64,000 nucleotides of DNA from Phytoamicus setariae (GTDB taxonomy: Bacteria; Pseudomonadota; Alphaproteobacteria; Rhizobiales; Rhizobiaceae). This document shows, piece by piece, positions 25,397 to 63,705 of this stretch (position 1 is its first letter; each line of letters starts with the position of its first letter). The stretch spans positions 1 to 64,000 of the forward strand of contig NZ_JAEQNC010000002.1 of NCBI RefSeq assembly GCF_016722925.1, read 5' to 3'. The position numbers and the translations under genes are program-made. Below the pieces are notes generated by a model. The model ran no database searches and was not told the DNA's origin. It saw only the letters and a program-made list of their open reading frames with translations.

Positions 25397-25409
25397 AATT
25401 CGTCGATTG

Positions 25410-25528: not shown

Positions 25529-25587
25529 AAATCTTGAAAGCTGGATAACGTAATTCCCGGGCATTTCCGGGAGATTGGAATAGTGAA

Positions 25588-26538
25588 ATGTCCCATTCTG
25601 AATTCGATGCCCACACGCGGGATGCCGCTGCGCGGCCGCCGCTCGATCCGCATCTGAAGGCGCTGGAGAACGAAGCCATCCACATCTTCCGCGAAGTGGC
25701 AGGTGAGTTCGAGCGTCCGGTGATGCTTTATTCGATCGGCAAGGATTCGTCGGTGCTGCTGCATCTGGCGCGCAAGGCGTTTTATCCCGGCCGCATCCCG
25801 TTTCCGCTGCTGCATGTCGACACCGGCTGGAAGTTCAAGGAAATGATCGCCTTCCGCGACAAGATGGTGGCAGACTACGATCTCGATCTGGTCGCCCACA
25901 CCAATCCGCGCGGTGCGATCGAGAACGTCACGCCCTTCACCCATGGCTCGGCACTCTATACCGACATCATGAAGACCGAGGCGCTCAAGCAGGCTCTTGA
26001 TGCCGGAAAATATGATGCGGCATTCGGCGGCGCCCGTCGTGACGAGGAAGCTTCGCGCGCCAAGGAGCGTATCTATTCGTTCCGCACGCCCGATCACAAA
26101 TGGGATCCGCGCAACCAGCGTCCGGAACTCTGGAATATCTATAACGGCCAGATCCGCCGCGGCGAGAGCGTGCGTGCGTTTCCGCTGTCGAACTGGACCG
26201 AAGTCGACATCTGGCGTTACATCCAGGCCGAAAACATTCCGATTGTCCCGCTTTACTTCGCCGCCAAACGCCCGGTCGTCGAACGCGATGGTATGATGAT
26301 CCTCGCGGAAGATCCGCGGCTGGAGTTGCAGCCCGGCGAAGTCAAGCGCGAGGAAGTCATTCGTTTCCGCACGCTCGGTTGCTTCCCTCTGACCGGCGCG
26401 ATCCGCTCCACCGCCACCACGCTCGATGAAATCATCGCCGAGCTCGAAACCGCCACTGTCTCCGAACGTCAGGGCCGTGCCATCGACCGCGACCAGGCCG
26501 GCTCGATGGAAAAGAAGAAGCGCGAAGGGTATTTCTGA
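25588..26538 (+). CDS. cysD: Sulfate adenylyltransferase subunit 2 (CysD)
   Basis: A 316-residue small subunit of ATP sulfurylase, which forms APS from sulfate and ATP using GTP energy from CysN. The PP-loop [18 protein letters not shown] (about residues 49-66) and the [20 protein letters not shown] block are diagnostic. The C-terminal KKKREGYF end is normal. The stop is two bases before the cysN start. It is cotranscribed with cysN and possibly with cysH. Confidence 0.94.
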
Positions 26539-26540
26539 TC

Positions 26541-28068: not shown

Positions 28069-28193
28069 GCATTGCCCTTGCCTGACTGACGGGCAGCCAG
28101 CCTTGCATGCATGGGCCTGAATTACTCCCAATTGTTTATTTGAAGGCCGGTATATTACCATGCTCTAATGCAGGCTCATTCGGAGGATTTCCA

Positions 28194-47211: not shown

Positions 47212-48187
47212 GGGCGACCTCCAGCCCGAAAGTCGGGGCGGCGGTCCTGATGATCGTCTCGAGATCCGAGAACCGCGGCATGAATTTCAATTCGGACGTC
47301 GCTGTATGCACATCGGAATAAAGGGCAGGTGGGTCGCCCGCCCGGCGCGGTTCGCACTGCACCGGCACGCGGCGATGCGTCAGCCGCTCGATCGTGTCGA
47401 TGATCTGCTTGACCGAGGCGCCTTGGCCGGAGCCAAGATTTGCGACCATGTTCTTGCCTCCGTCGAGCAGGTGTTCCACTGCCGAAACATGGGCTTGGGC
47501 CAGATCCATGACATGGATGTAGTCACGGATGCAGGTGCCGTCGGGGGTCTCATAGTCGTCGCCGAAAACCTTGAGCATATCGATGCGGCCTGCGGCAGCC
47601 ATCAGCGCCCGAGGAATGAGATGGGTTTCCGGGTCGTGCTTTTCCCGCAGTTCGCCGTCTAGATCGGCGCCGGCAGCGTTGAAATAGCGGAGCGCGACAT
47701 AGCGCATCCTGTAGGCATCGACATAGTCCTGCAACATCATCTCGCCGATCAGCTTGGTGCGCCCGTATGGATTGATCGGCGCTAGCGGACTGTCTTCGGT
47801 GATGGGAAGTTTCGAAGGAATGCCATAGGTGGCGCAGCTGCTCGAGAACACGACATTGCGGAGATTTGTATCCACGCAGGTGTCCAGAAGCGCCAGACTA
47901 CCGGCGACGTTGTTGTTGTAGTACTTGCGGGGATCCACCGTGGATTCGCCGACATAGGCCGATGCCGCAAAGTGAATGACGCACTGCGGCTGCCAGCGCT
48001 TTATCGCATGGCGAAGCTGGTCGCGGTCGCGAATGTCTCCATGGACCAGCGGCCCCCACCGGACATTGTCTTCATGGCCGGTGGCGAGATTGTCGTAGAC
48101 GACGGGCATGTAGCCCGCCTTGTAGAGCTGTTTGCAGGTGTGGCTGCCGATATAGCCGGCGCCACCGGTGACGAGAATATTGTCCAT
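47195..48187 (-). CDS. galE: UDP-glucose 4-epimerase
   Basis: A 330-residue extended SDR that interconverts UDP-glucose and UDP-galactose. The NAD motif GGAGYIG is at residues 8-14, the catalytic SSSCATYG and YGRTK motifs are present, and the GDDYETPDGTCIRDYIHVMDLA block is diagnostic of GalE. Ten bases after the UXS gene and overlapping the GT2 gene, so it supplies precursors for the polymer of this operon. A paralog of ExoB-type epimerases may exist elsewhere. Confidence 0.92.
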   Translation of the reverse strand: MDNILVTGGAGYIGSHTCKQLYKAGYMPVVYDNLATGHEDNVRWGPLVHGDIRDRDQLRHAIKRWQPQCVIHFAASAYVGESTVDPRKYYNNNVAGSLALLDTCVDTNLRNVVFSSSCATYGIPSKLPITEDSPLAPINPYGRTKLIGEMMLQDYVDAYRMRYVALRYFNAAGADLDGELREKHDPETHLIPRALMAAAGRIDMLKVFGDDYETPDGTCIRDYIHVMDLAQAHVSAVEHLLDGGKNMVANLGSGQGASVKQIIDTIERLTHRRVPVQCEPRRAGDPPALYSDVHTATSELKFMPRFSDLETIIRTAAPTFGLEVAHELVA

Positions 48188-48197
48188 GTGACCGCCC

Positions 48198-49226
48198 TCA
48201 GTTCCCGGTCGCCGCGCGGCTCAACGCGCTGCCGAAGTAGGCTGCAGTCGCCGAAAGCCCCGTTTCGATGTCGATTGAAGGGCGCCAATCGAGCATGGCA
48301 GCGGCGCGGCTGATATCAGGCCGGCGTTGCTGGGGGTCGTCCACGGCCGGTGGCATATGCACGATTTCGGACTTGGAACCGGTCAACCGGATGATCCTCT
48401 CGGCGAGGTCGATCATCGTCAATTCCGTAGGGTTGCCCAGATTGATCGGCCCCGTCACGTCGGGTGCCGTCGACAGGAACTTCAGGAAGCCGCCGATCAG
48501 GTCGTCGACATAACAGAAGGAACGCGTCTGAAGGCCCGTTCCGTAGATCGTGATGGGTGCATTGCTGAGCGCCTGGACCATGAAGTTGGACACGACCCGT
48601 CCATCATCCAGCCGCATGCGCGGACCGTATGTGTTAAAGATCCTTGCGACCTTTATCTTGACGCCGTAGAGGCGCGCATAGTCGAAATAGAGCGTTTCAG
48701 CGCAACGCTTGCCTTCGTCGTAACAGGCGCGGGGACCAGTGGTGCTGACATTGCCGAGATAGTCTTCCTTCTGCGGCGAGATCAGGGGGTCGCCATAGAC
48801 CTCGGAGGTCGATGCCTGAATAATGATTGCATTGCGTCGGCGCGCCAGATCCAGAAGGTTCTTCGTGCCCATGATGTTTGTCATCAATGTGCCGATCGGG
48901 TCGGCCTGATAGGCCGGCGGCGAAGCGGGGCTGGCAAAATTGTAGATCGCATCAACCTTCTGATGCAACGGATTACGAATGTCGTGTTTGCGGAATGTGA
49001 AGCCTTCCAGGTCGAGAAGGTGCCGGACATTGTCAATTCTGCCGGTCGAGAGATTGTCGATGCAGATAACTTCGTGGCCCAGTTCCAACAATCTCTCACA
49101 AAGATGTGAACCGAGGAAACCGGCGCCGCCGGCGACAAGTACTTTTAGTGGCTTATCAATATTTACTTTGGGAAAATCAATGACATTTCCAATTTTACTG
49201 GAATTAACGCTGCCTGTATTCGTCAT
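48198..49226 (-). CDS. UDP-glucuronate decarboxylase (UDP-xylose synthase)
   Basis: A 342-residue SDR-type epimerase/decarboxylase. The NAD motif GGAGFLG is at residues 33-39, followed by NFASPASPPAYQADPIGTL and CYDEGKRCAETL, which are typical of UXS enzymes that turn UDP-glucuronate into UDP-xylose. The C-terminal RRPDISRAAAMLDWRPSI helix is also typical. A 25-residue polar leader precedes the Rossmann fold. AGGAGGCG precedes the ATG. First gene of the operon with galE, GT2, DUF995 and a GH26-like enzyme. Without a test, epimerase rather than decarboxylase activity is possible. Confidence 0.88.
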   Translation of the reverse strand: MTNTGSVNSSKIGNVIDFPKVNIDKPLKVLVAGGAGFLGSHLCERLLELGHEVICIDNLSTGRIDNVRHLLDLEGFTFRKHDIRNPLHQKVDAIYNFASPASPPAYQADPIGTLMTNIMGTKNLLDLARRRNAIIIQASTSEVYGDPLISPQKEDYLGNVSTTGPRACYDEGKRCAETLYFDYARLYGVKIKVARIFNTYGPRMRLDDGRVVSNFMVQALSNAPITIYGTGLQTRSFCYVDDLIGGFLKFLSTAPDVTGPINLGNPTELTMIDLAERIIRLTGSKSEIVHMPPAVDDPQQRRPDISRAAAMLDWRPSIDIETGLSATAAYFGSALSRAATGN

Positions 49227-50370: not shown

Positions 50371-51573
50371 CTAAATGGCCAGGTCGACAAAAGTGTTGCC
50401 AACGGCCGTCATATGCCCGTTGCTGTCAAGCAGTTCGGTATTGACGTTCCAGCCATCACCGCCTTCATAGGCTCCAAACCAGGCATGCCGCTTGACGAAA
50501 CTGAGGTCATCAAGCATTTGCGTGGCGGCTTCGGCAAACTTTGCAGCCTCCCTTGCCGAATAGCGGTCCGGATTTTCCCAGTCAATCAGCGCCCATTCGG
50601 TCACCCAGATCGGTTTGTGATACTCTTTGTAGACGTCGCGCAGAAAGTTCTTGAAGTCGCCGAGGTTGCCGTCATCCGAATAGTAGTGAACGGTGACGAA
50701 ATCGACATCGTATCCCCTAGCCTCCGCCTTGCTCATGAACTTGCCAAGCCACGACGTCGCGCCCAGCGTCTCGTCCTGGGTCGTTGCCGGGGAGCCAAGC
50801 AACTTGCCGGTCGCCATCAGCTTGGGCCAGAGCTTCAGAGCCTCGGCGACCGTCATGTCGGATTGGCTGTGGTTGTCCGGTTCGTTGAAGCCGAGCAGGT
50901 AGTTCGACGATGAATTTTTGGCGCTACGCAGGTCTGCCCTGTTTACGTCATCGGCACCCCAGATCATCGGGACAAAACTGTCGTCAGCGGCAAGCCTGCC
51001 CGTGGCGGTCGGCGACCAGAGGGGCGATGGCTGCCAGTTGTAGTACCAGCCAAAATTGAACCTGCCGAGATCTTCCTGGGCGGTGCCGTTGGCATCGAAA
51101 TCCCATGTGCCGATGCCGATCTTGCCGGATTGTTCGATCAGGCCGGCGCTGCGGGCGGGATTGTGCATCTTTGCCGCCGCAAAGGCGGGCGCGTCCATCG
51201 GGATGCCGTCATCGGGCTTGTGATGGCTGGTCCGGTCGTGGCGAGCGGCGTGATGATCTTCCGGCGCGCGTAAGCTTTGGTGTGTGGCGGTCACCAGGTC
51301 GAGGAGGTCGGTGTCGTGCTGTCCGCCGTCGATGCTGGCAGACAGATGCGCGCCCTGTCGGTCGCCGCCATACGGGGAGAGGGCGCCTCGGTCATCGTGA
51401 AAGCCATGCGTCGCGGATAGTGCGTCGGACCGCATGTTGAAGACAAATTCGTCTTGGAAAATCCTGGTAGCGCCCGGACGATGTAAGTCGAGTGCCCAAG
51501 CCCAAGACTGCGCGTTCCAGCCATCGGCATTGCCTGACCATTCACCCGGCCATTTTTCGCGACGTTGAGACAC
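50371..51573 (-). CDS. GH128-like glycoside hydrolase (glycosyl hydrolase catalytic core)
   Basis: A 400-residue protein whose C-terminal 250 residues match the glycosyl-hydrolase catalytic core family (GH128, usually beta-1,3-glucanases). Glu231 in LGFNEPD and Glu326 in WVTEWAL are the expected acid/base and nucleophile. The N-terminal 150 residues are unlike any domain I know, Asp/His-rich (HHAARHDRTSHHKPDDG) and without a signal peptide. Starts with GTG preceded by GGAG. Alone, next to the polysaccharide locus; a role in cutting a glucan is inferred. Export route unknown. Confidence 0.72.
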   Translation of the reverse strand: MSQRREKWPGEWSGNADGWNAQSWAWALDLHRPGATRIFQDEFVFNMRSDALSATHGFHDDRGALSPYGGDRQGAHLSASIDGGQHDTDLLDLVTATHQSLRAPEDHHAARHDRTSHHKPDDGIPMDAPAFAAAKMHNPARSAGLIEQSGKIGIGTWDFDANGTAQEDLGRFNFGWYYNWQPSPLWSPTATGRLAADDSFVPMIWGADDVNRADLRSAKNSSSNYLLGFNEPDNHSQSDMTVAEALKLWPKLMATGKLLGSPATTQDETLGATSWLGKFMSKAEARGYDVDFVTVHYYSDDGNLGDFKNFLRDVYKEYHKPIWVTEWALIDWENPDRYSAREAAKFAEAATQMLDDLSFVKRHAWFGAYEGGDGWNVNTELLDSNGHMTAVGNTFVDLAI

Positions 51574-52014: not shown

Positions 52015-52680
52015 TCAGGCGAAGATCCGGTTGACCTTGTTGAACACGGAGACGGCCTCGGCCATATCTTCATAGAAGGTCAGTTTGCCGTTATTGAGCA
52101 CGCCTGCTTCCTGGCAGTATTTGGTGATTATTTCGGGCTTGGAGGAGGCGATCAGGAATTTGACTCTGTCGCGGTTCTCTTCCAGATGCTGCACGCAGCG
52201 TCGACGAAACGCGGAATCGCCGCCTTCCATACCTTCGTCCACCAGGATCCGGTCGAAGCCCATGGAAAACAACGCGCTGATCGAGAGACGCGAGCGCATC
52301 TCGAAATTATATTGCCGCATCGGTTGGTCCAGATAACGCCCAAGTTCGGAAAACTGCTGCACGAATTCATAGGCTTCGTCGAAGTTGCGACCATAGACAT
52401 CCGTCAGAAACCGGAGGTTCTGCTTGCCGGTCAGCTTGTTGGAAATGTTGCCTTTGAACGTGTAGGGCCAGGATATGCCGCCGTTGCGGAAGATCCGACC
52501 CTCGCTGGGTGATATGTTGCCGGAAGCCAGATTGATGAAAGTCGTTTTCCCCTGGCCTTCCGGAACCAAAATGCCGCTACTTACCTCGTCGGCAAACGTG
52601 CGATTGATATTTCTTAGCACCCAGCTGATTTCGCCTTTGCGGTTGCGATAGGCTTTTCCGGTGTTCTCGAAGGTAATCAA
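52015..52680 (-). CDS. kpsT: Capsule exporter ATP-binding subunit, KpsT-like, with degenerate motifs
   Basis: A 221-residue ABC ATPase matching KpsT over its length (for example LTGKQNLRFL, ISWPY, FSELGRYLDQP, MRSRL). Several key positions differ from working ATPases: the P-loop is VPEGQGKTT (first Gly is Val39), the SGM of the signature is FEM (YNFEMRSRL), and the H-loop SHS is SSK, so the switch His is lost. Walker B keeps its Glu (LVDEG). ATP binding may persist; hydrolysis is doubtful. It overlaps kpsM by four bases. Family and context say polysaccharide export; its activity is an open question. Confidence 0.85.
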   Translation of the reverse strand: MITFENTGKAYRNRKGEISWVLRNINRTFADEVSSGILVPEGQGKTTFINLASGNISPSEGRIFRNGGISWPYTFKGNISNKLTGKQNLRFLTDVYGRNFDEAYEFVQQFSELGRYLDQPMRQYNFEMRSRLSISALFSMGFDRILVDEGMEGGDSAFRRRCVQHLEENRDRVKFLIASSKPEIITKYCQEAGVLNNGKLTFYEDMAEAVSVFNKVNRIFA

Positions 52681-53528
52681 ATTTCGTCCTCGTCGTCGTC
52701 GTCGGCCTTGGAGCGGATGATTTCGTTTCGGAACAGTCGTTCAATCGACAGCGAAAACAGGAAAACCACTGTTGTGAAGCCAAGCAAATATTCCGGGTCG
52801 TAGACCGAGAGATAGTCGAGGTAGGAGTGCGACCTGAGCGCCTCGACGCAATGCAGGAAAGGATTCCATATGATGATGTTGAGGATTTCAGGTGGCATCT
52901 GTGCCGGCACGAACAAGATGCCCGAGGTGATCACGAGCGGCATCGACATCATCTTCCAGATGCTGCGCCAGATGGGGACGAGCGCCCCGACCGTGGCGTT
53001 GAACATGGCCATGGCGATGCAGAAGTAGAATATCAGCAGCAAGGAGATGACGAAGCCCTGGAAGTCGGTGATGACCTCCTGACCCATGATACGGCTGACG
53101 GCTGTGAAGAAGCACGCCAGGATAAGGACCCAGATTGTGAACTCCACGGTGGTCCGGGCAATCACCACATCCGGTGGCTTGACGGCGCCGAAATCGAAGA
53201 GCGCACTGTTTGACATTATGGCCCTGCCGCCTTTGTTGATGATGTTGCGCGTTGCGCGCAGCGCCACGATCCCGGTGAGCAGGAACAGAATCGAACTTTC
53301 GCCGAACGCCGGATTGACATTCTTGATGTAGATACGGGCAAACAGCAGAAGACTGATCAGGATCGCCGGCTCCACCAGCGTCCAGACATAAGAGAATGGA
53401 CTCGACCCAAAGCGCATCGCCGCTTCGCGGAAAATCAGCGCAACGATGACTCTGAGGTTCGTTGCAGCACCCCGCAGGGCGTCGCTGCCGGCCGACATGC
53501 GCCGCATGTCGTTTTCGGTCGTCGCCAT
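52677..53528 (-). CDS. kpsM: Capsule exporter permease, KpsM family
   Basis: A 283-residue ABC-2 type membrane protein with about six hydrophobic segments. The SPFSYVWTLVEPAILISLLLF, ISWxP-like and FVPAQMPPEILNIIIWNPFLHCVEALRS regions fit KpsM-type polysaccharide exporters. The C terminus is an acidic ADDDDEDE tail, unusual for the family. Coupled to kpsT by overlap; kpsE lies 56 bases upstream. It forms the transport channel for the capsule polymer. Confidence 0.87.
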   Translation of the reverse strand: MATTENDMRRMSAGSDALRGAATNLRVIVALIFREAAMRFGSSPFSYVWTLVEPAILISLLLFARIYIKNVNPAFGESSILFLLTGIVALRATRNIINKGGRAIMSNSALFDFGAVKPPDVVIARTTVEFTIWVLILACFFTAVSRIMGQEVITDFQGFVISLLLIFYFCIAMAMFNATVGALVPIWRSIWKMMSMPLVITSGILFVPAQMPPEILNIIIWNPFLHCVEALRSHSYLDYLSVYDPEYLLGFTTVVFLFSLSIERLFRNEIIRSKADDDDEDEI

Positions 53529-53584
53529 TATATCTCCTGTCGGCAGTTTCCGCGCGCTGGTTTCAGCATCTATGTGCGTTCATC

Positions 53585-55027
53585 TTAGATCGCGTGGTCG
53601 CGGAACGAGCGGTAGAGGAACTGGCTAAGCATCCACACGGCCAGGAAAACCAGCAACGCGATAAACGTATCGAGAAGGCGCATCGGATAAAGCGCGATTT
53701 CCGGCCGGGTCGGTGCGATGAAGGTCGCAAAGTAGCGTTCCTGCTTCTGCGCCTCCGCCAGTGCGGTTTCGAATGCGGCTAGCGCGGTCGTGTAGGCCTG
53801 GGTCGCAAAGCCCTGCTCGACAGTCAGTTCCTCGAACTTGTTGAGGATTTCGGCAACATTTCTGTCGTCTCCGGGCTTGGCGTGTTTGGCGTCGACCGTT
53901 GGGTCTCCAAGCTTGTCTTTCTGGGAGGCGAGCGCCTCTTCGGCTGCGGTGATCTGCTTATGCAGCATCCGGGCGGACGGAGAGTCTGCCGAAACACTCT
54001 GCAGCAGGGCGCTGCGGCGGGTTTTTAGGTTCTGCAGTTGATTTTCGAGCGATTGGGTAAGCTGCGTTTCAGTCGCGCTGATCGTGCTGATGTCGATCGT
54101 CTTTTCCTTCGTCCGCAGCTCACGGATGCCTTCCCGGACTTTCCGCAGCCGGTCCTCGGCGCGATCGACCTGCTTGGATGCCATGATCGTCATCTGCTGG
54201 CGGTTCTTCTCCGAAAGGTCGTTGACGAGCTTTTCAGAGACCTTGAGCACCGCATCGGCGATGGCTTTGGTGTCGTCAGCGGAGAAAGCGTAGATGTAGA
54301 GCGTAGTATTGCCGGTCGTAGAGTTGAAGCTAACCTCTGTCATGTCACGCCAGTATTCCGTGAACTTTTCGAGAGGCATGTTCGGTTCTATCCGGTAGAG
54401 CCAGTCAACATTGTCCCGCGAGTAATACTTGCGCAAGTCGATACCGAGTTGGCTTTGAACGTCGCGAATAAGCTGCAGAGATTGAACATAGCTCGCGACA
54501 ATGTAGGAATCGCCAGATTGCACGGAGCTTCCAAACAGACCAGAGAGGCCAAAGCTCGACATGGACGACTGGCTGGAGCCCCGGACGGAGAATTGCGTCT
54601 CGACCTGATATTGGGGGCTGGCGATGAAGGTGTAATAAAACCCGCAGATTGCAGCCGGGATCAACACCATCAGCAGAAACGATACGGCGGTCCAGGACAG
54701 CCGATTCGTGATTTTCATCGGAGCTAGCGGTGCGATAGCGGCTGCAGCTTCGGCTGCCTCTGCTTCCGCACGCTGCTTTTTGCGACGTAGCCCTCGGCCC
54801 CGCCCAACCGGAGTTTCTTCCTGAGGCGCCTCGGTCTCTTGCGCCCGTTTGCGGTTTTGAAATGCACGCACGCTCAGCGCTTCTGCTGTGGAATCCGTCT
54901 CTGCGGAGTTCTTGCGCTCCAACCGCCGGCGCAAACGTTCTTCACGTCGTTCGTCCTTGGTTCCCGGGAATTTGATTGGCTCGTTGACTTCAGGTTCGCC
55001 GGTGCGAGTTGTTTCCAAAACAGTCAT
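53585..55027 (-). CDS. kpsE: Capsule export periplasmic adaptor, KpsE family
   Basis: A 480-residue inner-membrane protein of the PCP-3/KpsE type. Membrane segments at about residues 112-133 and 453-474 enclose a periplasmic domain with a QYQVETQFSVRG beginning and a long coiled coil (about 255-370). A cytoplasmic N terminus of 110 residues, rich in Arg, Glu and Ala, is longer than in E. coli KpsE. It guides polymer across the periplasm with KpsMT and an outer-membrane KpsD, which is not encoded here. First gene of the kpsE-M-T transcript. Confidence 0.87.
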   Translation of the reverse strand: MTVLETTRTGEPEVNEPIKFPGTKDERREERLRRRLERKNSAETDSTAEALSVRAFQNRKRAQETEAPQEETPVGRGRGLRRKKQRAEAEAAEAAAAIAPLAPMKITNRLSWTAVSFLLMVLIPAAICGFYYTFIASPQYQVETQFSVRGSSQSSMSSFGLSGLFGSSVQSGDSYIVASYVQSLQLIRDVQSQLGIDLRKYYSRDNVDWLYRIEPNMPLEKFTEYWRDMTEVSFNSTTGNTTLYIYAFSADDTKAIADAVLKVSEKLVNDLSEKNRQQMTIMASKQVDRAEDRLRKVREGIRELRTKEKTIDISTISATETQLTQSLENQLQNLKTRRSALLQSVSADSPSARMLHKQITAAEEALASQKDKLGDPTVDAKHAKPGDDRNVAEILNKFEELTVEQGFATQAYTTALAAFETALAEAQKQERYFATFIAPTRPEIALYPMRLLDTFIALLVFLAVWMLSQFLYRSFRDHAI

Positions 55028-55437
55028 ATTAAAATCCAGTTGACGCTATCGAGTCGGAACGGGTGAAGATCGGGTAGAAGGTCGAAAATACTGCGGCGGA
55101 TACGAGTTTCTATGGTGCCCCGCAATGTTTCATTCTTCCCTCCCGGTCGGATTACGTCCGGAACCGATTGTTGGTCACCGATCCAGCTACTGCCGCACGA
55201 TGCCCGGAACCGCGGTGCAATCTATTATATTTCCATTGTGCCAACAATATGGTTTAGAACACGTTGATTTAACGCAATTTAACAATCGGCCCGCTTGCGT
55301 GACAGCCTCTGATTTATAGTTTTGGAATGGTGACGGCATTGGCGCGGTGTTGCATTGGCCCTCGCATGCGTGGCATGGAAACCTCGTAGCGGAAGCCGCT
55401 ACGATCAACTCTGAACAGGAACCGCTACCCGTATTCC
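55028..55437. other. 410-base divergent promoter region of the capsule locus
   Basis: AT-richer gap between divergent kpsE and a glycosyltransferase gene. It should hold promoters for both. A hairpin lies at its right end (separate entry). No known box was recognised. Confidence 0.4.
55385..55403 (+). promoter_or_regulatory. Hairpin in the leader of the capsule glycosyltransferase
   Basis: CGTAGCGG and CCGCTACG are perfect 8-base arms with a 3-base AAG loop, 34 bases upstream of the ATG at 55438. Possible leader control of the glycosyltransferase mRNA. The motif AACCGCTACC recurs right before the start. Function not known. Confidence 0.4.
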
Positions 55438-56865
55438 ATGGAAAAGATTTCCCTGATCATCCCGCTTAGACTGACTGCGGGTACCTTCGAGGGCGAAGCG
55501 CGGCTTCGACGAATCTGTGCGACGGTTCCTCGCGACCTCTATGAGATCGTCATCTCCGACTATGGCACGGACGAGGCGTTTGCAGGTCCGCTTTGTGGTT
55601 TGGAAGCCGAAGGGATCCGGGTGGTGCGCCACCCTTCGCCAGCAGCCATTTTTTCGATCGGCCAGAGCCGGGACTACGGCGTCCAGATGGCGCGCGGACG
55701 CGTCGTGATGTTCAACGACATCGACTTTTCTGGTACCGTCGAGATGTATCGCCAGATCCATGCGGAGGTCGAGCGTCGCGACATCGCGACCAATCTGTTC
55801 GATTTCTTTTGCGTGCCGGTGCTGTTTCTGACGGAGGAGGGGACCGGTCGCTGGAGGTCGAGGCTTTCGACAGGCCAGCTATTTCTTGACGCCGTCACCC
55901 TCGAAAGCTTGGAACGAGATGACCCCGGTATCCAGTTCACGGCTTTCGGCAGCTCGGCCATGGTGGTCAACAGGCATCACTACCTGTCTTTGGGGGGGCA
56001 CGACACGCGGTTTTCCGGGCACGGGGGCGAGGACTACGATCTCTTGCATCGGCTGTCCGCGCTTGCACCGAAAGGTCCGCGTCCCAACGACTATTTACGG
56101 GACTACAGGGACAATGGCGTCCGCAGCTACTGGGGTTTTCGACCGTTTTTTGCCCTTTATGGCCTCGATGCCTTCATCCGCGGCCTCTATCTCGTTCATC
56201 TCTGGCATCCGCGGAGGCCTGAAAAAGGATACTTCCGGCCGCGTTCCAACTTCCGCCATCTGCGCAAACTGATGGCGGGCTTTGAGAAGCGCGGTACGAT
56301 GCCGCTGCCGCTGGCTGATTTGCAGGCAAAGGATAAATGGATCGTTCTGGTTCGCAACCGCCGTGATCTGGAGACGGTGCGACAATTGTTGCCGCTGGCC
56401 CGCGAATACGAGGTGGTCAAGTGCCGCGCAATTCCGGATGCACGTGAACTGGCCAATCTGGCGAAGAGAGGGCGCGCCTCCGCTATCCTCATTTGCCCTG
56501 AGGTGGGCGGAACCATGTCGGAACGGCAAGTAGAAGGGGCAGACGTTTTCCGGTTTGGAAAGGCGGCGGGCGAGGACCGGATCCAGGTGAGTGTTGCAGG
56601 GCGCTCCGAGCCGGCCCGGGCTGGCCATTTTACGATACGATCGACGCGTGCCGTGAGTTTATTCCGCTACTGGCGGCAGCTCGATTTGGGTTCGCTGGGC
56701 AGCGTTGACAGCGGGCGAATTCCGTCTCCGGAGGCATTGGATTCTGTGATCTTCTCTTCCTTCGGCGGCGCTTCGCTCCTCGATCGCAAACTCCATCCTC
56801 GCCCCGTTCCGAAGAAGAAATCTTCTCTTTGGGTGCGCTTCAAGCGCACCCTTACGGGATACTGA
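55438..56865 (+). CDS. Two-part capsule glycosyltransferase, chondroitin-polymerase-like
   Basis: A 475-residue cytosolic glycosyltransferase. The N-terminal half is GT-A type: ISLIIPLR, a FNDIDFSG DxD segment (about residues 98-105), and the GGHDTRFSGHGGEDYDLLHRL motif found in the second domain of GT2/GT27C-like transferases. The C-terminal half (about residues 290-475) shows alpha/beta segments such as KWIVLVRNRRDLETVRQLL and is unlike anything I recognise. Divergent from kpsE. Probably adds sugars to the capsule repeat unit; specificity unknown. Confidence 0.75.
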   Translation: MEKISLIIPLRLTAGTFEGEARLRRICATVPRDLYEIVISDYGTDEAFAGPLCGLEAEGIRVVRHPSPAAIFSIGQSRDYGVQMARGRVVMFNDIDFSGTVEMYRQIHAEVERRDIATNLFDFFCVPVLFLTEEGTGRWRSRLSTGQLFLDAVTLESLERDDPGIQFTAFGSSAMVVNRHHYLSLGGHDTRFSGHGGEDYDLLHRLSALAPKGPRPNDYLRDYRDNGVRSYWGFRPFFALYGLDAFIRGLYLVHLWHPRRPEKGYFRPRSNFRHLRKLMAGFEKRGTMPLPLADLQAKDKWIVLVRNRRDLETVRQLLPLAREYEVVKCRAIPDARELANLAKRGRASAILICPEVGGTMSERQVEGADVFRFGKAAGEDRIQVSVAGRSEPARAGHFTIRSTRAVSLFRYWRQLDLGSLGSVDSGRIPSPEALDSVIFSSFGGASLLDRKLHPRPVPKKKSSLWVRFKRTLTGY

Positions 56866-56947
56866 TCGCCTCTGGATGTTGCTTAGAGCCGCCACCCATA
56901 TTAGAGCCAATTCAACGATCGAAACGACTGCTTTGAAAGGGATTCGG

Positions 56948-57802
56948 ATGCCAAGGACGGTTTTGCATATTGGCGCGCACAAGACAGCCACGACCTATAT
57001 GCAGAAGAAACTCGCCGTCAATGTTGATGCGCTTGCCGCGCGAGGTATCCGCTACGACCCGCTGGACAGCTTCCGCAAGAACGTCAGCTGCTACCTGCAG
57101 GATAAAGACCGGGCAAACGCCAAGTTCATCGCGGAGCTCAAGTCGGATATCAAGACACAGGATGTGCTGATCTCGGAGGAGAATATCCCGGGCATGCCGA
57201 GCGACCTGGTTAAATCCGGCGTCTATTACGCTGGCGCCAAGGGACGGATGCGCAAGTTCGCCAAATTGCTCGATATCGACACGCCCGAGATTTTTGTTGG
57301 ACTTCGCGAGTACTCGTCCCTGATCGTTTCGATGTATAGCGAGTATCTACGGCACCGCGAATTCTTTCACTTTTCCGAGTACCACGCGCTGTACAAGAAG
57401 TCGAAGTTCACCTGGATGGGGTTGATTTCGGATGTTGTCGAAGTTTTTCCGAACGCGCGGATTTGCGTTTGGGATTTTTCGAAATTCCGCACCATTGAGC
57501 CAGAGGTCTTCAAGGCAATGCTGGGGCAGGACGCGAGTTTTCTGGTGGCTCCCGAAGGACCGGTCCGTGAATCTTTCTCCGAAAAGGCCCTGCAGGTATT
57601 TGAGACGTTAAGTGAGATTCTGACCCATCACGAACTGAAGGGCCTGATAGGGCCGATTTCGCGCGCTTTGCCGAAAGGCGATACTTACAAGGCTTTCAGT
57701 CCGTTGCCCGCAGACGTGATCGCGGAAATGAAGGTGGCGTATGAGCGCGATCTCAGGGCTATAGCCGCCCGCTTTCCGCAAATCGAGTTCATCGGCGGCT
57801 GA
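56948..57802 (+). CDS. Sulfotransferase-like protein, copy A
   Basis: A 284-residue PAPS-dependent sulfotransferase-like protein. The phosphosulfate loop is GAHKTATT (residues 9-16) and the 3-prime phosphate site is LREYSSLIVSMY, with Arg120, Ser128 and Tyr130 in the typical RxxxxxxxSxY spacing. Start at 56948 with AAAGGGATTCGG upstream. It is clearly a relative of the protein at 62279-63160 but not of the one at 57820-58653. Likely sulfates a capsule sugar. No signal peptide, so it acts in the cytosol. Confidence 0.8.
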   Translation: MPRTVLHIGAHKTATTYMQKKLAVNVDALAARGIRYDPLDSFRKNVSCYLQDKDRANAKFIAELKSDIKTQDVLISEENIPGMPSDLVKSGVYYAGAKGRMRKFAKLLDIDTPEIFVGLREYSSLIVSMYSEYLRHREFFHFSEYHALYKKSKFTWMGLISDVVEVFPNARICVWDFSKFRTIEPEVFKAMLGQDASFLVAPEGPVRESFSEKALQVFETLSEILTHHELKGLIGPISRALPKGDTYKAFSPLPADVIAEMKVAYERDLRAIAARFPQIEFIGG

Positions 57803-57819
57803 GCCATGGGCCGTTGCGC

Positions 57820-58653
57820 TTAACCGGTCTTTTCGTAGAACTCCAATCCGAACGTGTCGATCAGATACTGTTTCTGAGGCTCCATCAAGGCTGCGAGTCG
57901 TTCAGAAACCCAATCCGGTACGGCCACCGGCTTCGTCTGGTGCACGGTCTCGGTCAATTGCTTGTAGTTGTCGTAGGCTGGAGCGCCTATGAAAGTCTCG
58001 ATAGTGCGGATCATCCCTGCCGGATCTGTCTTTATCAACGAAAAAGGGAGCACGAGAAGCTGCTCCGGGGCGAGGAGGCGCTGCCAGCGGGGAATGAACT
58101 CGCTGTAGTTTCCACGGTCAGTCTTTTTTATCCGCCTGATCAGTTGCTGCCATGCCGGATCGTCTAGCGCTTCACCCGATCGGAGCGCTTCCATCTTTAT
58201 CTGCGACAGCGCGCGGGCAAGCGGCTCCCGGACGATCAGGACGAATTTGGCGTCGGGCAGCAGGGACTTGGCATAGGCGATCTTGTCTTCTGGCAATGTC
58301 AGATAAGCGGGCGTGATTTCGCCACTGACGCGGCCGGTGGCATCAGGATGAGAGAACATCTTTCGGTACCATTGCTCCGTGCCGACATCCTGGCCCACCA
58401 GATTTCGCAGGAACCGGGCCTCGTCCGCACCTTCCGATCCCTTGATTCCGCCGTTCTTTTCGAGACGCTGGGCTCGCTTGAGAATGTGTTCTCTGCGCTT
58501 TTCCTTGGCGCTCTCTGCTTCACCCATTCGGTCGAAGAAATGAACTTCCTTGAGCGGGGGCAACCATATTCCGGGATTTTGAGACAAAATCTCATACAGC
58601 CAAGTTGTCCCCGCCTTTTGGGCGCCAATGCAAATGAAGCTGGGAAGTGACAT
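57820..58653 (-). CDS. Sulfotransferase, heparan-type (Sulfotransfer_1)
   Basis: A 277-residue sulfotransferase. PAPS loop GAQKAGTTWLY (residues 10-20), KEVHFFD after it, and the 3-prime phosphate site VREPLARALSQIKME with Arg142 and Ser150. These match carbohydrate sulfotransferases (heparan/NodH-like). Runs opposite to the copy A gene, whose stop is 17 bases away, and is followed upstream by two more minus-strand transferase genes. Probably modifies the same capsule. Confidence 0.88.
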   Translation of the reverse strand: MSLPSFICIGAQKAGTTWLYEILSQNPGIWLPPLKEVHFFDRMGEAESAKEKRREHILKRAQRLEKNGGIKGSEGADEARFLRNLVGQDVGTEQWYRKMFSHPDATGRVSGEITPAYLTLPEDKIAYAKSLLPDAKFVLIVREPLARALSQIKMEALRSGEALDDPAWQQLIRRIKKTDRGNYSEFIPRWQRLLAPEQLLVLPFSLIKTDPAGMIRTIETFIGAPAYDNYKQLTETVHQTKPVAVPDWVSERLAALMEPQKQYLIDTFGLEFYEKTG

Positions 58654-58687
58654 GACTGAGGATCCTTTCTTGATAATACCTGGAATA

Positions 58688-59671
58688 CTAAATCCAGTCG
58701 CCTGATGAAATAATTCCGGTTTTCAGAAGGTCGGCCGAAGAGTCGTAGCGTGTACTGACTCCCTCGTGATACAGCGTCTTGTTCTCCGCAACGGTGTTGG
58801 CGATTTCCGTGCCATATATGCGGACCATCGCTTCATTCGTCATGCTCGGTTTCCTGGCAGCGATCTGAGGAAACCTGAAAACAGCCGCCGCAACGACTGC
58901 GCCTTTCAAGTCCAAAAGGCGCATCAGCTTGTGCGGCCTGAGCACCCTGCCGCGGTCGTGGAAACAATAGTTCCAGCGCCACCACACGCCCACCACTCGA
59001 TTGAGATTTGGTGACGAAGCTGGGTCCGGCTTGTGGGAAAGGCGAAGTGCCAGGCCGCCTTTGACCGAGGCGACCCCATCGCCAAGATCCTTATGATAGT
59101 AGCCGTCTTTGTCGAAGTAGCAGCAATGCTCGAAAGGGTTTTGCGTTTGCGCGTTATCGTCAGTGGCCCTATCCGAATCGAGGGCGTAGGCATCGAGGCG
59201 GGTTCCGAACAGCGAAACCCTTTTCTCGTTCTTGAGAAAATCGGCCAGTTCACCGATCTTTCGTTCCTCGGCAAAAGGACATACGACATATTCGCCGGGG
59301 TCGGCGAGCAAGCAGAAATTCTGTGTCGCAAAGCGCCTGAGAATCACATTGCGCCACTCGTAGCCATCGCCTGCACGCTTGAGGCCACCCGCTGCGGAGA
59401 AAACCGAGACATCGTCTCTGGTTGCGAAGATCTTGGAGCATTCTTGCTCCGCACCATGGTCGATGAAGAGAAAGTGGCTGACACCAATACTGCGATAGTA
59501 GTCGCAGAAATGCAGGACCTGCTCATCCCACGTGTTGTCGCAGGCCAGCAGCAAAACGTCCCCGCGTCTGATGTTGGCGGTATTGTCGATGCGCGTCCGC
59601 ATCCAGAGGCGGTAATAGACGTACTTCCAGAAGCCGACATACTGCCAGAAAATCAGATTGAGAACTTTCAT
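58688..59671 (-). CDS. Glycosyltransferase family 2-like protein (Glyco_tranf_2_4 type)
   Basis: A 327-residue protein with an N-terminal LLLACDNTWDEQVLHFCDYYRSIGVSHFLFIDHGAEQE block, matching the GT2_4/GT92-like pattern in which a conserved Asp-containing strand follows a conserved RNE/DNTWDE site. The middle contains DPGEYVV, the likely metal site. The C terminus has no known domain. Same strand as the sulfotransferase and GT14 genes, with gaps of about 35 and 100 bases, so a likely transcript of three genes. Specificity unknown. Confidence 0.7.
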   Translation of the reverse strand: MKVLNLIFWQYVGFWKYVYYRLWMRTRIDNTANIRRGDVLLLACDNTWDEQVLHFCDYYRSIGVSHFLFIDHGAEQECSKIFATRDDVSVFSAAGGLKRAGDGYEWRNVILRRFATQNFCLLADPGEYVVCPFAEERKIGELADFLKNEKRVSLFGTRLDAYALDSDRATDDNAQTQNPFEHCCYFDKDGYYHKDLGDGVASVKGGLALRLSHKPDPASSPNLNRVVGVWWRWNYCFHDRGRVLRPHKLMRLLDLKGAVVAAAVFRFPQIAARKPSMTNEAMVRIYGTEIANTVAENKTLYHEGVSTRYDSSADLLKTGIISSGDWI

Positions 59672-59773
59672 GGCATCAATCCGCGTTTGTGAGTGACTCT
59701 TTCCGGCAACGAGGTTTCGCTGCTCCGTGTCGATAGCAACGGCAGGTCTTCCGGCACGGGATTGATGTCTGAT

Positions 59774-61549
59774 CTATTCATGCCGGATTCCTGAACTCTC
59801 CGGCTGTCGAGGACGCAGCTTGAGGTCGGGGATGATCTTCCAGGGCGTTGATCCGTTTTCGGGCAGGTTGAGATTGCTTCGCCATTCTATCGGCAGAGCG
59901 CCGGGCGCGTCGCCCAATTCTGCCGGCATGGCCGCCGAGGCGATATCATACAAGGTAAGGATTGCCGCCGCGGAATTTCCATGTGAGCCGGCCAGATCCG
60001 CCTCGAGATCGGCACGCCTGATCGGTGTTCGTTCCGACTGCAGAATGGTGTCCAGCATGTTCCTGATCTCGACATCGGTGTCGATAGGGCCATCGAGCTG
60101 ATCGAAGTCCGTGTTGAGGGATTGCCGATCATCCGGAGCTCGTTCCGGCGTTTTGGAGCCGCAAAGCAGCCAGTACAGGTCCCGCCATGTCGTATCGGGA
60201 AATCTGGGCGCCACGGCAAATACCGCTGCCTTTGGCGACCGGAGGAAATGCGCTTCTATTTCGGGATGGTCGCCCGGCGACATCGCAAAGACCGGGATGC
60301 CCGCGCAGCGCAGGAAGATCCGGCGCAGGTAGTTGGCCGGATAGCTGTCGCGGATTGCCGCTTCGCAGGGCCTCAAGCCATGAAAGTCTTTGATATTGTT
60401 TCCGAAGTTGACAACGCCAGGCTGGAAAATCCGTCCGAGCACGGTGTAGCCCGCCAGACCTCTGATCTGGTCGGTCACCGCTTCTGTAACGGATGGCGGA
60501 CCGTAGAGGACGACAAAGCTGCGGTCATATTCGAGCAGGCTCTCGGGCAGATCTTCTTTGCCATTGTTGGCAAACAGGCGGCTGTAGCCTGGCTCCAACA
60601 CGGATTTCCGGGCCGCGATCTCGCGCCGCGGAAGCCGCCATTTGACGGGCGGTTCAAGGAGTGGCGATGCAGGATTTGAGGTCTGAAGAGCCCGCCGGGA
60701 CAGCTCCACACGCAATGTCTTGGCGTTGGGGTCGATCTTCCGCGCGAAGAAACGCGGTATGCTGTCCAGCAGCGGCATATGCCTGTCGGAAAACACCAGT
60801 GGCAGCCCCCCTTCATTGAACTGGTAGAAGGTGAGGCTGTGCCCAGTCACATTTCCCGGGGGCACGAAATGGTACACCAAAGTCTGGAAAACCAGCTCGT
60901 CCGCTATCCATGTCGTTTTGAAGAATTTGTAGATGCCGGGGTTTCTATCGAGAAAGTCCAACATCCTGGCGCACAGCGACCAGGTCAGTGTCCACCATTG
61001 TGAGCCGAATCTCGGCACGAGACCTGGCGGCAGCTTGCGTTTCAGGCGGAGAGTCTTCTGTGTCACGTACAGGCTTTTGAACAGCGCGGGATGGTTGCGC
61101 TGGTTGCAGATGTGGTGGTACCGGTAACGGTCCTCACGCATTCCGCCGCTGACCCAGCTTGAATCGTACGCCTCGATGAATTCCCGGTCCGGATGACTGT
61201 CAAGGAAGGCCGACAGTTCGGCGAGTGGCCTGATTGGCATGCACACACCGCTGACCAGCATGACGCGGTCGCTATCGATCTGCTTGTCCCGGATCAATCG
61301 CAGTGCCCGCAGGGTTGCCTCGACGAGACTGAAATCGCCCCAGCCGCATTTGATTCGCTCGCGGACAAGATGCACACGGTTGGATCCGGCGAACTGTTCC
61401 TTCAGCTTTGAGAATTCTGCAGCCGGCGACTTTAGGTCGTAATGAATGACGGCATGAGCATGCGCGTCGAAGCCTGTCAGAAGTCGCGCCAGATCGCTGA
61501 CAAGTTCGGCGTTTTCATGCGCAAGAATGATGAAGGTGATTTTTGCCAT
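59774..61549 (-). CDS. Core-2/I-branching (GT14) glycosyltransferase with C-terminal unknown domain
   Basis: A 591-residue protein. The N-terminal 300 residues match core-2/I-branching beta-1,6-N-acetylglucosaminyltransferases (AHENAELVSDLARLL, WGDFSLVEATLRAL, MLVSGVCMPIRPL, GSQWWTLTWSLC, ADELVFQTLV). The C-terminal 290 residues form a separate domain, which I think corresponds to the DUF5927 type (moderate confidence). Start ATG 61549, the first matching the family N terminus; a longer frame upstream is not supported. Probably branches the capsule sugar chain. Confidence 0.8.
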   Translation of the reverse strand: MAKITFIILAHENAELVSDLARLLTGFDAHAHAVIHYDLKSPAAEFSKLKEQFAGSNRVHLVRERIKCGWGDFSLVEATLRALRLIRDKQIDSDRVMLVSGVCMPIRPLAELSAFLDSHPDREFIEAYDSSWVSGGMREDRYRYHHICNQRNHPALFKSLYVTQKTLRLKRKLPPGLVPRFGSQWWTLTWSLCARMLDFLDRNPGIYKFFKTTWIADELVFQTLVYHFVPPGNVTGHSLTFYQFNEGGLPLVFSDRHMPLLDSIPRFFARKIDPNAKTLRVELSRRALQTSNPASPLLEPPVKWRLPRREIAARKSVLEPGYSRLFANNGKEDLPESLLEYDRSFVVLYGPPSVTEAVTDQIRGLAGYTVLGRIFQPGVVNFGNNIKDFHGLRPCEAAIRDSYPANYLRRIFLRCAGIPVFAMSPGDHPEIEAHFLRSPKAAVFAVAPRFPDTTWRDLYWLLCGSKTPERAPDDRQSLNTDFDQLDGPIDTDVEIRNMLDTILQSERTPIRRADLEADLAGSHGNSAAAILTLYDIASAAMPAELGDAPGALPIEWRSNLNLPENGSTPWKIIPDLKLRPRQPESSGIRHE

Positions 61550-61931
61550 GAGCTCTTGGGGCTGATGAAAATCAGGCGGGAGATATACAGTGGAGGGGAA
61601 GGATGACAACGCGCCATGGGCACACGAAACCGGGACGCGATTGCACGCTTGGGGGCAAAACTGAGACCGGGTTGGTCAACTCCATCCTCTCTCCGGTATG
61701 ATAGACATACGGCACATCTGGTGTTCAGTCCTGCCTAAGAGACCTGCCGCATAGCTGCTTGATTTTGCGTTCGCGGCGGTTGGCGGTGCGCCCAACAGCG
61801 CACTTGTTTCGTCATAGGCGCTGGACTATGTTCCGTCTGAGCGTTTAGCCATGCTGGCGCGAGAAAGCAATATGGAAGACAATTTTCCAAGGTTGCAGTG
61901 CTGCATCTGATATTCACAGGGAGAAAATGAC
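61550..61931. other. 382-base gap with no gene seen
   Basis: Between divergent GT14 and small coiled-coil genes. I see no family or palindrome here; it should contain both promoters. The ribosome binding site of the next gene (AGGGAGA) lies at its right end. Confidence 0.4.
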
Positions 61932-62078
61932 GTGGCGGATATTGCTGGAGCGAGGAAGAGATTGAAGGAAGTGAAGGCCGAGATCGCCAGCGCGAAGTCC
62001 AAGCTCACAGCGCTGAAGGCCGAACGGACTGCACTCAAGGCAAAGATCGAGGCAGAGGCGCCAAAGAAGGCGACCTGA
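61932..62078 (+). CDS. 48-residue Lys/Ala-rich coiled-coil protein in the capsule locus
   Basis: A 48-residue protein starting at a GTG with AGGGAGA upstream: MADIAGARKRLKEVKAEIAS then a heptad-like run (AKSKLTALKAERTALKAKIE) with Leu/Ala at a/d positions and basic ends. It is predicted to be a single amphipathic coiled coil. A rho-independent terminator follows 88 bases after the stop. It lies between the GT14 and the second sulfotransferase copy. No name known. It may be an assembly factor or a scaffold. Confidence 0.6.
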   Translation: MADIAGARKRLKEVKAEIASAKSKLTALKAERTALKAKIEAEAPKKAT

Positions 62079-62166
62079 GATTGTTCTGACCAGAGTGAAC
62101 GCAATGCGCCCGTCCCAAAGGGTGTTGCTCTGGCGGTTTCAGTAATCTGACCAGAATTCCAGGGCC

Positions 62167-62190
62167 GGCCGATACGTCGGCCTTTCTTTT
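62167..62190 (+). terminator. Rho-independent terminator after the coiled-coil gene
   Basis: GGCCGA and TCGGCC pair around TACG, followed by TTTCTTTT. It terminates the short coiled-coil transcript just before the next sulfotransferase gene. Confidence 0.8.
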
Positions 62191-62278
62191 GCTGTTGACA
62201 ATCCTTCGTCCTGATCGGAGAGCATTGCCACCTAGGCTCGTTGCGACGAGAATGCTTGCCAGCCGGAATGCTTGCGAT

Positions 62279-63160
62279 ATGAAAATTCATTGTCACCTCG
62301 GCGTCCACAAAACGGCGACGACCTTTATCCAGAGCCAGCTTAGTGAAAACCGCGCGCAGCTTGCCGCCGGAGGAATTGGCTATGCGGGTATCTGGACGAT
62401 CCGCAAGCACTTCACCAACGCATTCGATCGCCTTTCGTGGTTCGATCCGGTCTGGCGCCCGTTGGTTCGGCCCTATCTGCGAAAGCGCCTCGACGCATTG
62501 CTGCAGCAGCATGCGAAGGGCGAGACATTCATTTTATCGGATGAGAACCTGCTTGGGCTTATTTCGGCAAACTACGTCACCCGAAGGCTCTATCCGCGGG
62601 CCGGCGCCCGTGTCGCCATGCTCGACGGTTTGCTCCGCCCTCATGACGTGCATTATTTCATCTCCGTACGCCGCTATCCGGAGTATCTGACCTCGTCATG
62701 GCTGCAAATGGCAGCGCGCGCCAAGGCGCCGGCATTCGAGAAATACCAAGGTCGTTTCTCGCCGCCGATGCGTGGATGGACGGAAATCGTTTCAGATATC
62801 GCCCGGGCAGTCGGGCCAGAGCGGCTTACCGTGTGGACCTACGACTGGTTGCGTGATGATCCCGCCCGTGCCTTGACACTTCTAGCGCCCGGTGTTCGCC
62901 TGAATGTTCCCGAACATGAGTTGCGTCGGGAGGTCCTGCCGTCGCTGAGCATCAAGGGTCTGAAAGTCATCACCCAGCTGGAGGGGCACCTTTCCCAGAG
63001 CGAACTCAGGCGTCTCGCCAAGCTGATCCGATCGTTCCCGTTCGACGACCCCAATCCGCGTCTGGAGATATCCGATGTCGCGCTGCTGGCTGCGTTCGAT
63101 CGGAAATACGAGCAGGATCTCGAAAACATTCGAGCCTTGGGCGTCGACCTGCGCGTCTAA
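62279..63160 (+). CDS. Sulfotransferase-like protein, copy B
   Basis: A 293-residue protein related to copy A at 56948-57802: the PAPS loop GVHKTATT (residues 8-15) is followed by FIQSQLSENRAQLAAGGIGY, matching the A copy pattern (Q, L, N, LAA, GI, Y). The 3-prime phosphate motif is FISVRRYPEYLTSSWL. Start ATG 62279; the ribosome binding site is weak and an upstream start is possible. Last gene of the capsule cluster on this side. Function as for copy A. Confidence 0.78.
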   Translation: MKIHCHLGVHKTATTFIQSQLSENRAQLAAGGIGYAGIWTIRKHFTNAFDRLSWFDPVWRPLVRPYLRKRLDALLQQHAKGETFILSDENLLGLISANYVTRRLYPRAGARVAMLDGLLRPHDVHYFISVRRYPEYLTSSWLQMAARAKAPAFEKYQGRFSPPMRGWTEIVSDIARAVGPERLTVWTYDWLRDDPARALTLLAPGVRLNVPEHELRREVLPSLSIKGLKVITQLEGHLSQSELRRLAKLIRSFPFDDPNPRLEISDVALLAAFDRKYEQDLENIRALGVDLRV

Positions 63161-63294
63161 GCACGATTCCGCATGGCGGGAGTGTGCTCCAAATTCCTCT
63201 GTACACGATTCGGGTGTATCATTGATCGTGGTCAAGGCGGCGCCGTTGCTGCCAGATAAACGTGACCGGGTTACAAGGCTCAGGAGGTTGCGCG

Positions 63295-63705
63295 ATGTAC
63301 AGGAAAATTATCGTTCCGGTTGAAATGGGGCAGCTGGACAAAGGGGAGAAAATCCTCAGGAAGGCGGTGGCGCTTCTCGACGCCGGCGGCGAGATTGTCC
63401 TACTCAACGTTGCGGAAAACATCCCGGGTTATCTGACCATCGACCTGCCACCGGATTTCATTGATACCAGTGTCAAGGATGCCGAAGATCGTTTGAAGTT
63501 GCTGAGCGGCAGGTGTGATGCGGACGCCGAGATTGTCGTGCGGATCGGCTCGCCGGCGCGCGAAATCATTGCCACCGCTGACGACCTGCAGGCCGACCTG
63601 ATCATCATCGCTTCACACAGGCCCAATCTGTCAAATTATCTGCTGGGAAGCACAGCTGACCGTGTTGTTCGCCACGCCAATTGCTCGGTTCTGGTGGATC
63701 GATAA
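63295..63705 (+). CDS. Universal stress protein (UspA family)
   Basis: A 136-residue UspA-type protein. KIIVPVEMGQ at the start, and the nucleotide-binding GSTADRVVRHANCSVLV (GxxxxxxxxHxxCSVLVVR-like) at the end, with LIIIASHR, all typical. It is 32 bases upstream of the DksA/TraR-like gene, likely an operon. The GSxxxRVVRHA motif suggests ATP binding, but this is not proven. Confidence 0.9.
   Translation: MYRKIIVPVEMGQLDKGEKILRKAVALLDAGGEIVLLNVAENIPGYLTIDLPPDFIDTSVKDAEDRLKLLSGRCDADAEIVVRIGSPAREIIATADDLQADLIIIASHRPNLSNYLLGSTADRVVRHANCSVLVDR

Follow-up and report, generated by a model that had tools for sequence, protein, structure and literature searches.

We analyzed a stretch of 64,000 nucleotides from Phytoamicus setariae (G000:C12:1-64000, hereafter the window) in a genome of 5.6 Mb, with emphasis on a locus at 52015-63160 that carries genes for capsule export, glycosyl transfer, and sulfation. 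A preliminary description of this DNA had placed kpsE, kpsM, and kpsT together with three glycosyltransferase and three sulfotransferase genes, and all nine open reading frames (ORFs) are indeed present and open there. Their order is kpsT, kpsM, and kpsE on the minus strand, GT2a and stA on the plus strand, stB, GT2b, and GT14 on the minus strand, and stC on the plus strand. With one flanking gene outside the proposed pathway, the features are:

52015..52680, minus strand: kpsT-like ATP-binding cassette (ABC) ATPase, with Walker A 'VPEGQGKTT', signature 'NFEMRSRL', Walker B 'ILVDE', and 'IASSK', which lacks His, at the H-loop position
52677..53528, minus strand: kpsM, inner-membrane permease, the sole KpsM found in the genome
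53585..55027, minus strand: kpsE, export protein of the KpsE/BexC/CtrB family (TIGR01010 match)
55438..56865, plus strand: GT2a, glycosyltransferase (PF10111, with a weak PF02709 match besides)
56948..57802, plus strand: stA, sulfotransferase without a Pfam match; listed ORF start 56876, likely start 56948; R120-x7-S128
57820..58653, minus strand: stB, sulfotransferase (PF13469/PF00685); R142-x7-S150
58688..59671, minus strand: GT2b (PF13704), with the DPDE motif as DPGE and the RNE and DNDS motifs altered
59774..61609, minus strand: GT14 (PF02485 with a C-terminal DUF5927-like region); likely start M21 (61549)
62279..63160, plus strand: stC, sulfotransferase without a Pfam match; listed ORF start 62189, likely start 62279
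63262..63705, plus strand: usp, universal-stress-like protein, named by sight, which adjoins stC in relatives too

The likely starts of stA and stC were taken from alignment with relatives. The three genes that define a group 2 (KpsMT, ABC-transporter-dependent) capsule exporter, kpsM, kpsT, and kpsE, lie together in the window and are adjacent in all nine genomes of the genus. KpsE matched TIGR01010 with 175 bits and KpsM matched NF050053 with 109 bits, each below the curated cut-off, and KpsM passed Pfam PF01061. KpsT reached 23.5 bits against PF00005, under the cut-off of 25. The glycosyltransferases matched PF10111, PF13704, and PF02485, all above cut-off.

The genome was placed in the Rhizobium alvei genus (NCBI taxonomy name now Fluviirhizobium alvei). 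A taxonomy paper of 2026 removes R. alvei from Rhizobium and groups it with R. aquaticum, R. setariae, and Onobrychidicola. The synteny search that had been suggested found KpsM and GT14 in all nine genus genomes (G000, the window species, to G008), with exactly one KpsM match in each, and because of this conservation the gene set is not a chance cluster. The locus is undivided in six genomes (G000, G001, G004, G005, G006, G007), in the order kpsTME, GT2a, stA, further sulfotransferase-type genes, GT2b, GT14, stC, usp. It forms two blocks in the other three (G002, G003, G008), where kpsTME-GT2a-stC-usp stands apart from GT14-GT2b-stB with stA and/or stF. Some genes are in pieces in G003 (GT14, GT2b, or kpsE) and G004 (GT14, stC, and stH; L022, L023), whose genomes are 86% and 84% complete; the breaks may be real or may stem from faulty assembly.

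Among the three window sulfotransferases, only stB is supported by Pfam (PF13469 at 70.5 bits, and PF00685). stA and stC are related to one another (25% identity, E 4e-16), and both keep HKTATT, preceded by G-x, near the N-terminus plus R-x7-S. In an alignment of seven stA sequences G-A-H-K-T-A-T, R120, and S128 are invariant. We take the first of these to be the 5'-phosphosulfate loop and R-x7-S to be the 3'-phosphate motif of sulfotransferases that use 3'-phosphoadenosine 5'-phosphosulfate (PAPS), so that by sequence motif stA has both marks of the PAPS sulfotransferase fold. A structure of stA predicted from five sequences (predicted local distance difference test [pLDDT] 90.8) was compared with known structures in VIA-align 2. 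The best matches were heparan sulfate sulfotransferases, namely 3-OST enzymes and human NDST1 in its sulfotransferase domain (Z 12.7 to 11.6; alignments of about 212 to 220 residues with root mean square deviations of 3.8 to 4.1 Å), and rows 1 to 25 were sulfotransferases without exception. The VIA-align 2 alignment and the motifs together suggest that stA is a sulfotransferase. Sulfotransferase genes are thus present at the capsule locus by Pfam (stB), by predicted fold (stA), and by similarity to stA with shared motifs (stC).

The number of such genes varies within the genus. In relatives the same block holds up to four more, and in the examined locus stretches we counted three sulfotransferase-type genes in G000 and G003, four in G001, G002, and G008, five in G007, and seven in each of G004, G005, and G006; no stA was seen in G003, and the stG of G008 is below the Pfam cut-off. 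Of the additional genes, stE and stH passed PF03567, stF and stG matched sulfotransferase families below cut-off, and stD, also without a Pfam match, owes its name to a HIGIHRTGTT start and a weak resemblance to stA. stB occurs as two subtypes (G000/G005/G006/G007 and G001/G008) that are 49-63% identical within and 33-37% between. Because three to seven sulfotransferase-type genes sit on one backbone, the positions on which the enzymes act might be mapped by comparing strains.

The absence of kpsC, kpsS, and kpsD that had been noted holds for the window, where tblastn found nothing at 1e-3, but not for the genome. The search for these genes elsewhere located them on contig C33, in the order kpsS, kpsC, kpsD, facing cysD, cysNC (630 amino acids with an APS [adenosine 5'-phosphosulfate] kinase domain), and cysQ. 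PF05159 and PF02563 were over cut-off in all nine genus genomes, and the genome thus holds the kpsC, kpsS, and kpsD expected of a group 2 capsule. cysQ is linked to kpsS in seven of the nine; in the other two (G005, G008) kpsS lies no more than about 0.3 kb from the end of its contig. Each genus genome has one strong APS kinase match (230-237 bits), which in G000 is the only one, and four have a second, weak match (21-24 bits). PAPS synthesis genes are therefore linked to capsule genes, as expected for a sulfated capsule. A second set of sulfate genes lies in the window at 24215-28016, 24 kb from kpsT, and encodes an APS-type reductase (TIGR02055 266 bits, cut-off 235), CysD, and a CysN without a kinase domain. 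This reductase is below the cut-off of the PAPS reductase model TIGR02057, and rhizobial CysH is described in a review as preferring APS. For these reasons we read the PAPS made by the C33 gene products as serving sulfation. In G004 and G005 a cysD/cysN pair lies approximately 8 to 11 kb beyond kpsT.

To place this linkage in a wider context, we looked at kpsS in the family, where 13 of 151 genomes had a match at E <= 1e-50, 11 of them outside the genus. With about 9 kb viewed on each side (less for L121, which is shortened by a contig end), four of these 11 loci (L120, L121, L122, L125) have cysD-cysNC-cysQ-kpsE-kpsM-kpsT facing kpsS-kpsC-kpsD. Two more, both from one other genus (L123, L124), have cysQ-kpsEMT-kpsSCD without cysD/cysNC, a state that would fit loss or relocation of sulfate activation, and the remaining five have kps genes without cysD/NC/Q. 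The association of PAPS genes with kps genes thus extends beyond the genus. An earlier idea that the linkage is genus-specific, from a control with 1.5 kb flanks that gave 0 of 11, was withdrawn; that control was too narrow, since two of the seven genus positives themselves have gaps over 1.5 kb. In all nine genomes of the R. alvei genus kpsEMT is gone from exactly this slot between cysQ and kpsS and is now found with sulfotransferase genes. The simplest history that we can propose is that kpsEMT moved out of an ancestral cysDNCQ-kpsEMT-kpsSCD cluster.

From the gene content, conservation, linkage, motifs, and folds described above, we propose the following substrates, sulfation of the exported polymer, and mode of export. 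KpsC and KpsS would make a lipid-linked starter, expected to be of the Kdo type in a group 2 capsule, and GT2a, GT14, and possibly GT2b would extend it. Sulfate would be moved from PAPS by stA, stB, and stC, with CysD/CysNC making the PAPS and CysQ clearing 3'-phosphoadenosine 5'-phosphate. The polymer would leave through KpsM and KpsE from the window and KpsD from C33. Because kpsSCD is linked with PAPS genes and kpsEMT with sulfotransferase genes, we consider it likely that these genes form a KpsMTE-type (ABC-exporter, group 2) pathway for a sulfated polysaccharide that is split over two genome sites. This judgment covers the sulfated capsule as a whole and leaves the mechanism of KpsT aside. 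A sulfated polymer exported by KpsMTE had been proposed from the window, and the genes on C33 strengthen that proposal.

Several observations weigh against it. stA, stC, and stD have no Pfam match, and for stA and stC NCBIfam gave none either. Foldseek with the stA model returned nothing at E <= 0.001 and ranked GTPases first, and a sequence search of the PDB gave no match for stC and two chance-level matches for stA. The window reductase also passes NF002537, the NCBIfam model for phosphoadenylyl-sulfate reductase (258.8 against a cut-off of 154), so it is only probably of the APS type, and assimilation may need PAPS as well. A tblastn search of the 20 kb around the kps genes in the 11 other Rhizobiaceae gave no homologue of stA-stH; since four of these 11 have linked cysNC, linkage to PAPS genes does not predict these sulfotransferases. 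The degenerate KpsT described below speaks against ordinary export through this transporter.

The sulfotransferases could instead act on another envelope glycan, such as lipopolysaccharide (LPS) or a glycolipid, with kpsEMT nearby because the region is shared among surface glycans. Sulfated LPS, for which PAPS is the donor, is reported from Sinorhizobium meliloti and Mesorhizobium loti, and three members of the genus have GT14-GT2b-stB, together with stA and/or stF, separate from kpsEMT. This is rather unlikely in our view, since the sulfotransferase genes are in one block with kpsEMT in six of the nine genomes, stC is in the kpsEMT block of the other three, and the PAPS genes adjoin kpsSCD and no recognized LPS genes. 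Modification of Nod factors, for which NodH is described as a rhizobial sulfotransferase, is barely credible; the gene context is capsular, and none of the nine genus genomes gave a NodA match, although the control genomes gave none either. We therefore retain the sulfated capsule as the better explanation. Bacterial sulfated capsules resemble the sulfated glycans of animals and algae, and few gene sets for them have been defined.

The glycosyltransferases set the window species apart from its relatives. GT14 scored 56.8 bits against PF02485, and its predicted structure (mean pLDDT 69.7) has the GT14 fold; murine C2GnT-L (Z 21.4) ties with human xylosyltransferase 1 (Z 20.9) as the best match, and B3GalT5 follows (Z 13.2). 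A sequence profile search gave xylosyltransferase 1 alone at E <= 0.01. The gene had been called an animal-like core-2 transferase. The GT14 assignment stands, but because the fold fits C2GnT-L and xylosyltransferase 1 equally well, no core-2 activity follows and we dropped it as unproven. No paper on DUF5927 was found in the literature searched. Across the wider family the GT14 profile at E <= 1e-20 matched seven of 297 genomes from three of 106 genera, and five of those genomes belong to the R. alvei genus.

Within the genus, the GT14 of the window is 39-43% identical to that of relatives compared with 44-65% among the relatives, and its GT2b is only 30-34% identical to five relatives that are 64-74% identical among themselves. 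By contrast, KpsM of the window is 60-78% identical to that of relatives. The GT2b motif VDPDE of seven aligned relatives (VDVDE in Amylibacter) is ADPGE in the window, RNE and DN-x-S are also altered, and this GT2b is perhaps inactive. stD, stE, and stF are absent from the window locus, where 17 bases separate stA from stB and 34 bases separate stB from GT2b. Because GT2b lacks conserved glycosyltransferase motifs and is an outlier in its genus, the polymer of the window species probably differs from that of its relatives.

The preliminary description had missed this loss in GT2b and also the state of KpsT, which lacks catalytic ABC motifs. The H-loop His is absent from KpsT in all nine genus genomes, with SSK, TGS, TGN, TSD, and similar in place of SHS, and so is the ABC signature (SG/AG, that is Ser-Gly/Ala-Gly). 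The first Walker A Gly is lost in eight and retained in R. alvei. The Walker B Glu is Asp in seven and kept in the window species and G005. The Walker A Lys, the Walker B Asp, and a Gln at the Q-loop position are each kept in all nine. As a comparison, His and signature are intact in 18 of 18 comparators, namely 14 KpsT sequences that adjoin KpsM in other Rhizobiaceae, the KpsT of S. meliloti, and three distant paralogues that are not clear KpsT (L061, L062, L094). Walker A was unreadable in one comparator (L101), and four KpsM loci (L107, L108, L109, L113) were left out because the examined piece held no KpsT. By these residues KpsT of the genus does not have a canonical ABC catalytic site.

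kpsT and kpsM are nevertheless open in all nine genomes. The ratio of nonsynonymous to synonymous substitution rates (dN/dS) for seven pairs was 0.20-0.35 for KpsT and 0.14-0.28 for KpsM, rough values given a dS of 0.73-1.15, and these suggest that KpsT evolves under purifying selection. With S. meliloti KpsT as query (E <= 1e-12; 150 of the 188-277 candidates per genome scored), the degenerate KpsT was the sole match in eight of the nine genomes and no KpsT-class substitute was found in these. The ninth, G006, has two further matches, one of which (L094) keeps all motifs. In the literature searched, no paper turned up on KpsT with the H-loop, and the single hit for a degenerate KpsT was, by its title, unrelated. 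Because the H-loop His and the signature are gone but the Lys of Walker A and the Asp of Walker B remain, KpsT probably binds ATP and keeps KpsM together, and its hydrolysis is probably slight or unusual. It could be an inactive ATPase, an active one of an unusual kind, or one that works with an unlinked partner.

One scenario, which we offer tentatively, is that kpsEMT left the ancestral cluster and joined the sulfotransferase block, and that KpsT lost hydrolysis, giving a capsule exporter that does not depend on canonical hydrolysis of ATP by KpsT itself. Such export could, for example, be gated by ATP binding and driven by polymerization or by charge on a chain rich in sulfate. It is quite possible, if short of probable, that KpsT is active through non-canonical residues and that export is ordinary and ATP-driven; the residues kept in all nine genomes, a catalytic Glu in two or Asp in seven, and the dN/dS values fit this, whereas the loss of His and signature in all nine and of the first Walker A Gly in eight, set against 18 comparators with His and signature, does not. 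Some ABC transporters are known to be asymmetric, with one of their sites degenerate, and an intact unlinked ABC ATPase might partner or replace KpsT, as the additional matches in G006 would allow; with a single match in each of the other eight genomes among the 150 candidates scored per genome, we regard this as doubtful. Decay of the exporter locus would account for a KpsT that is degenerate genus-wide and for a window species with a degenerate GT2b and fewer sulfotransferases, but the open kpsT and kpsM and the low dN/dS of both make it improbable. Export of group 2 capsules is assumed to be driven by hydrolysis at KpsT, and a conserved, selected KpsT without the motifs is a natural test of this assumption.

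We compared the locus with known systems. Vibrio sp. KMM 8419 is reported to have a structurally proven sulfated capsule and a cluster in which kpsDMTES, a second cysN/D/C set, and sulfotransferases occur together (PMC11641403), much as the genes do here. That cluster is described as having 80 genes with GT2, GT61, and GT4 glycosyltransferases and three sulfotransferase genes (PMC11641403), whereas the R. alvei genus has GT14, up to seven sulfotransferase-type genes, and two genomic sites. The genus KpsT lacks the H-loop His and signature; for the Vibrio strain the comparison covers gene content. M. loti is reported to have nodPQ-dependent sulfated surface polysaccharides and a KpsS sulfotransferase (PMC6192434, PMC11625862), and shares PAPS-dependent sulfation of a rhizobial surface polysaccharide. 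It differs in genus, polymer, and sulfotransferase number, and the likeness of its KpsS is by description, not sequence. Sulfated capsules had been called rare in rhizobia and this polymer undescribed. The reports on M. loti are precedents for sulfated surface polysaccharides in rhizobia; the literature searched for sulfated capsular polysaccharides in rhizobia gave one paper, which judging by title and abstract does not concern a rhizobial capsule.

On pSymB of S. meliloti (L076), KpsM, KpsT, and a polysaccharide export protein (RkpR region) are also adjacent, but KpsM is approximately 30% identical, the KpsT motifs are intact, and no sulfotransferase is annotated among the 22 features shown. 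The four other Rhizobiaceae with the full cluster share its genes and order save for kpsEMT (KpsT 40-41% and KpsM 41-43% identical for most). They differ in that kpsEMT is still in the cluster, KpsT is intact, and no stA-stH homologue is nearby. In Amylibacter/Rhodobacteraceae (L049-L051) GT2b is likewise beside GT14-DUF5927 with cysQ nearby (45-47%), and L050 and L051 have, some 6 kb off, a protein distantly similar to stA, but GT14 is only 26-32% identical and L050 has a KpsM-like protein that is just weakly supported (22%, without a Pfam match). On two Shinella plasmids (L059, L060) GT14-GT2b lies close to a type I secretion system and to a gene annotated as a sulfotransferase, and in L059 it is also beside a KpsD-like gene (62%). 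The kind of capsule is known, and the variant, with its split locus, many sulfotransferases, GT14, and degenerate KpsT, is new within the scope of these searches.

The window has further genes of note. A protein with a PF11790 glycosyl hydrolase catalytic core (50371-51573; 177.5 bits) adjoins kpsT and is possibly a capsule-trimming enzyme; tblastn of 20 kb stretches around the loci of relatives found no homologue of it. A protein at 28107-30266 has a subtilisin-like N-terminus (TIGR03921) and a serralysin-like C-terminus (NF035945), both below cut-off. A possible exopolysaccharide cluster at 45346-49226 comprises genes for GalE, for a glycosyltransferase of cellulose-synthase-like type, and for a sugar-nucleotide dehydratase/epimerase resembling, by sight, a UDP-xylose synthase.

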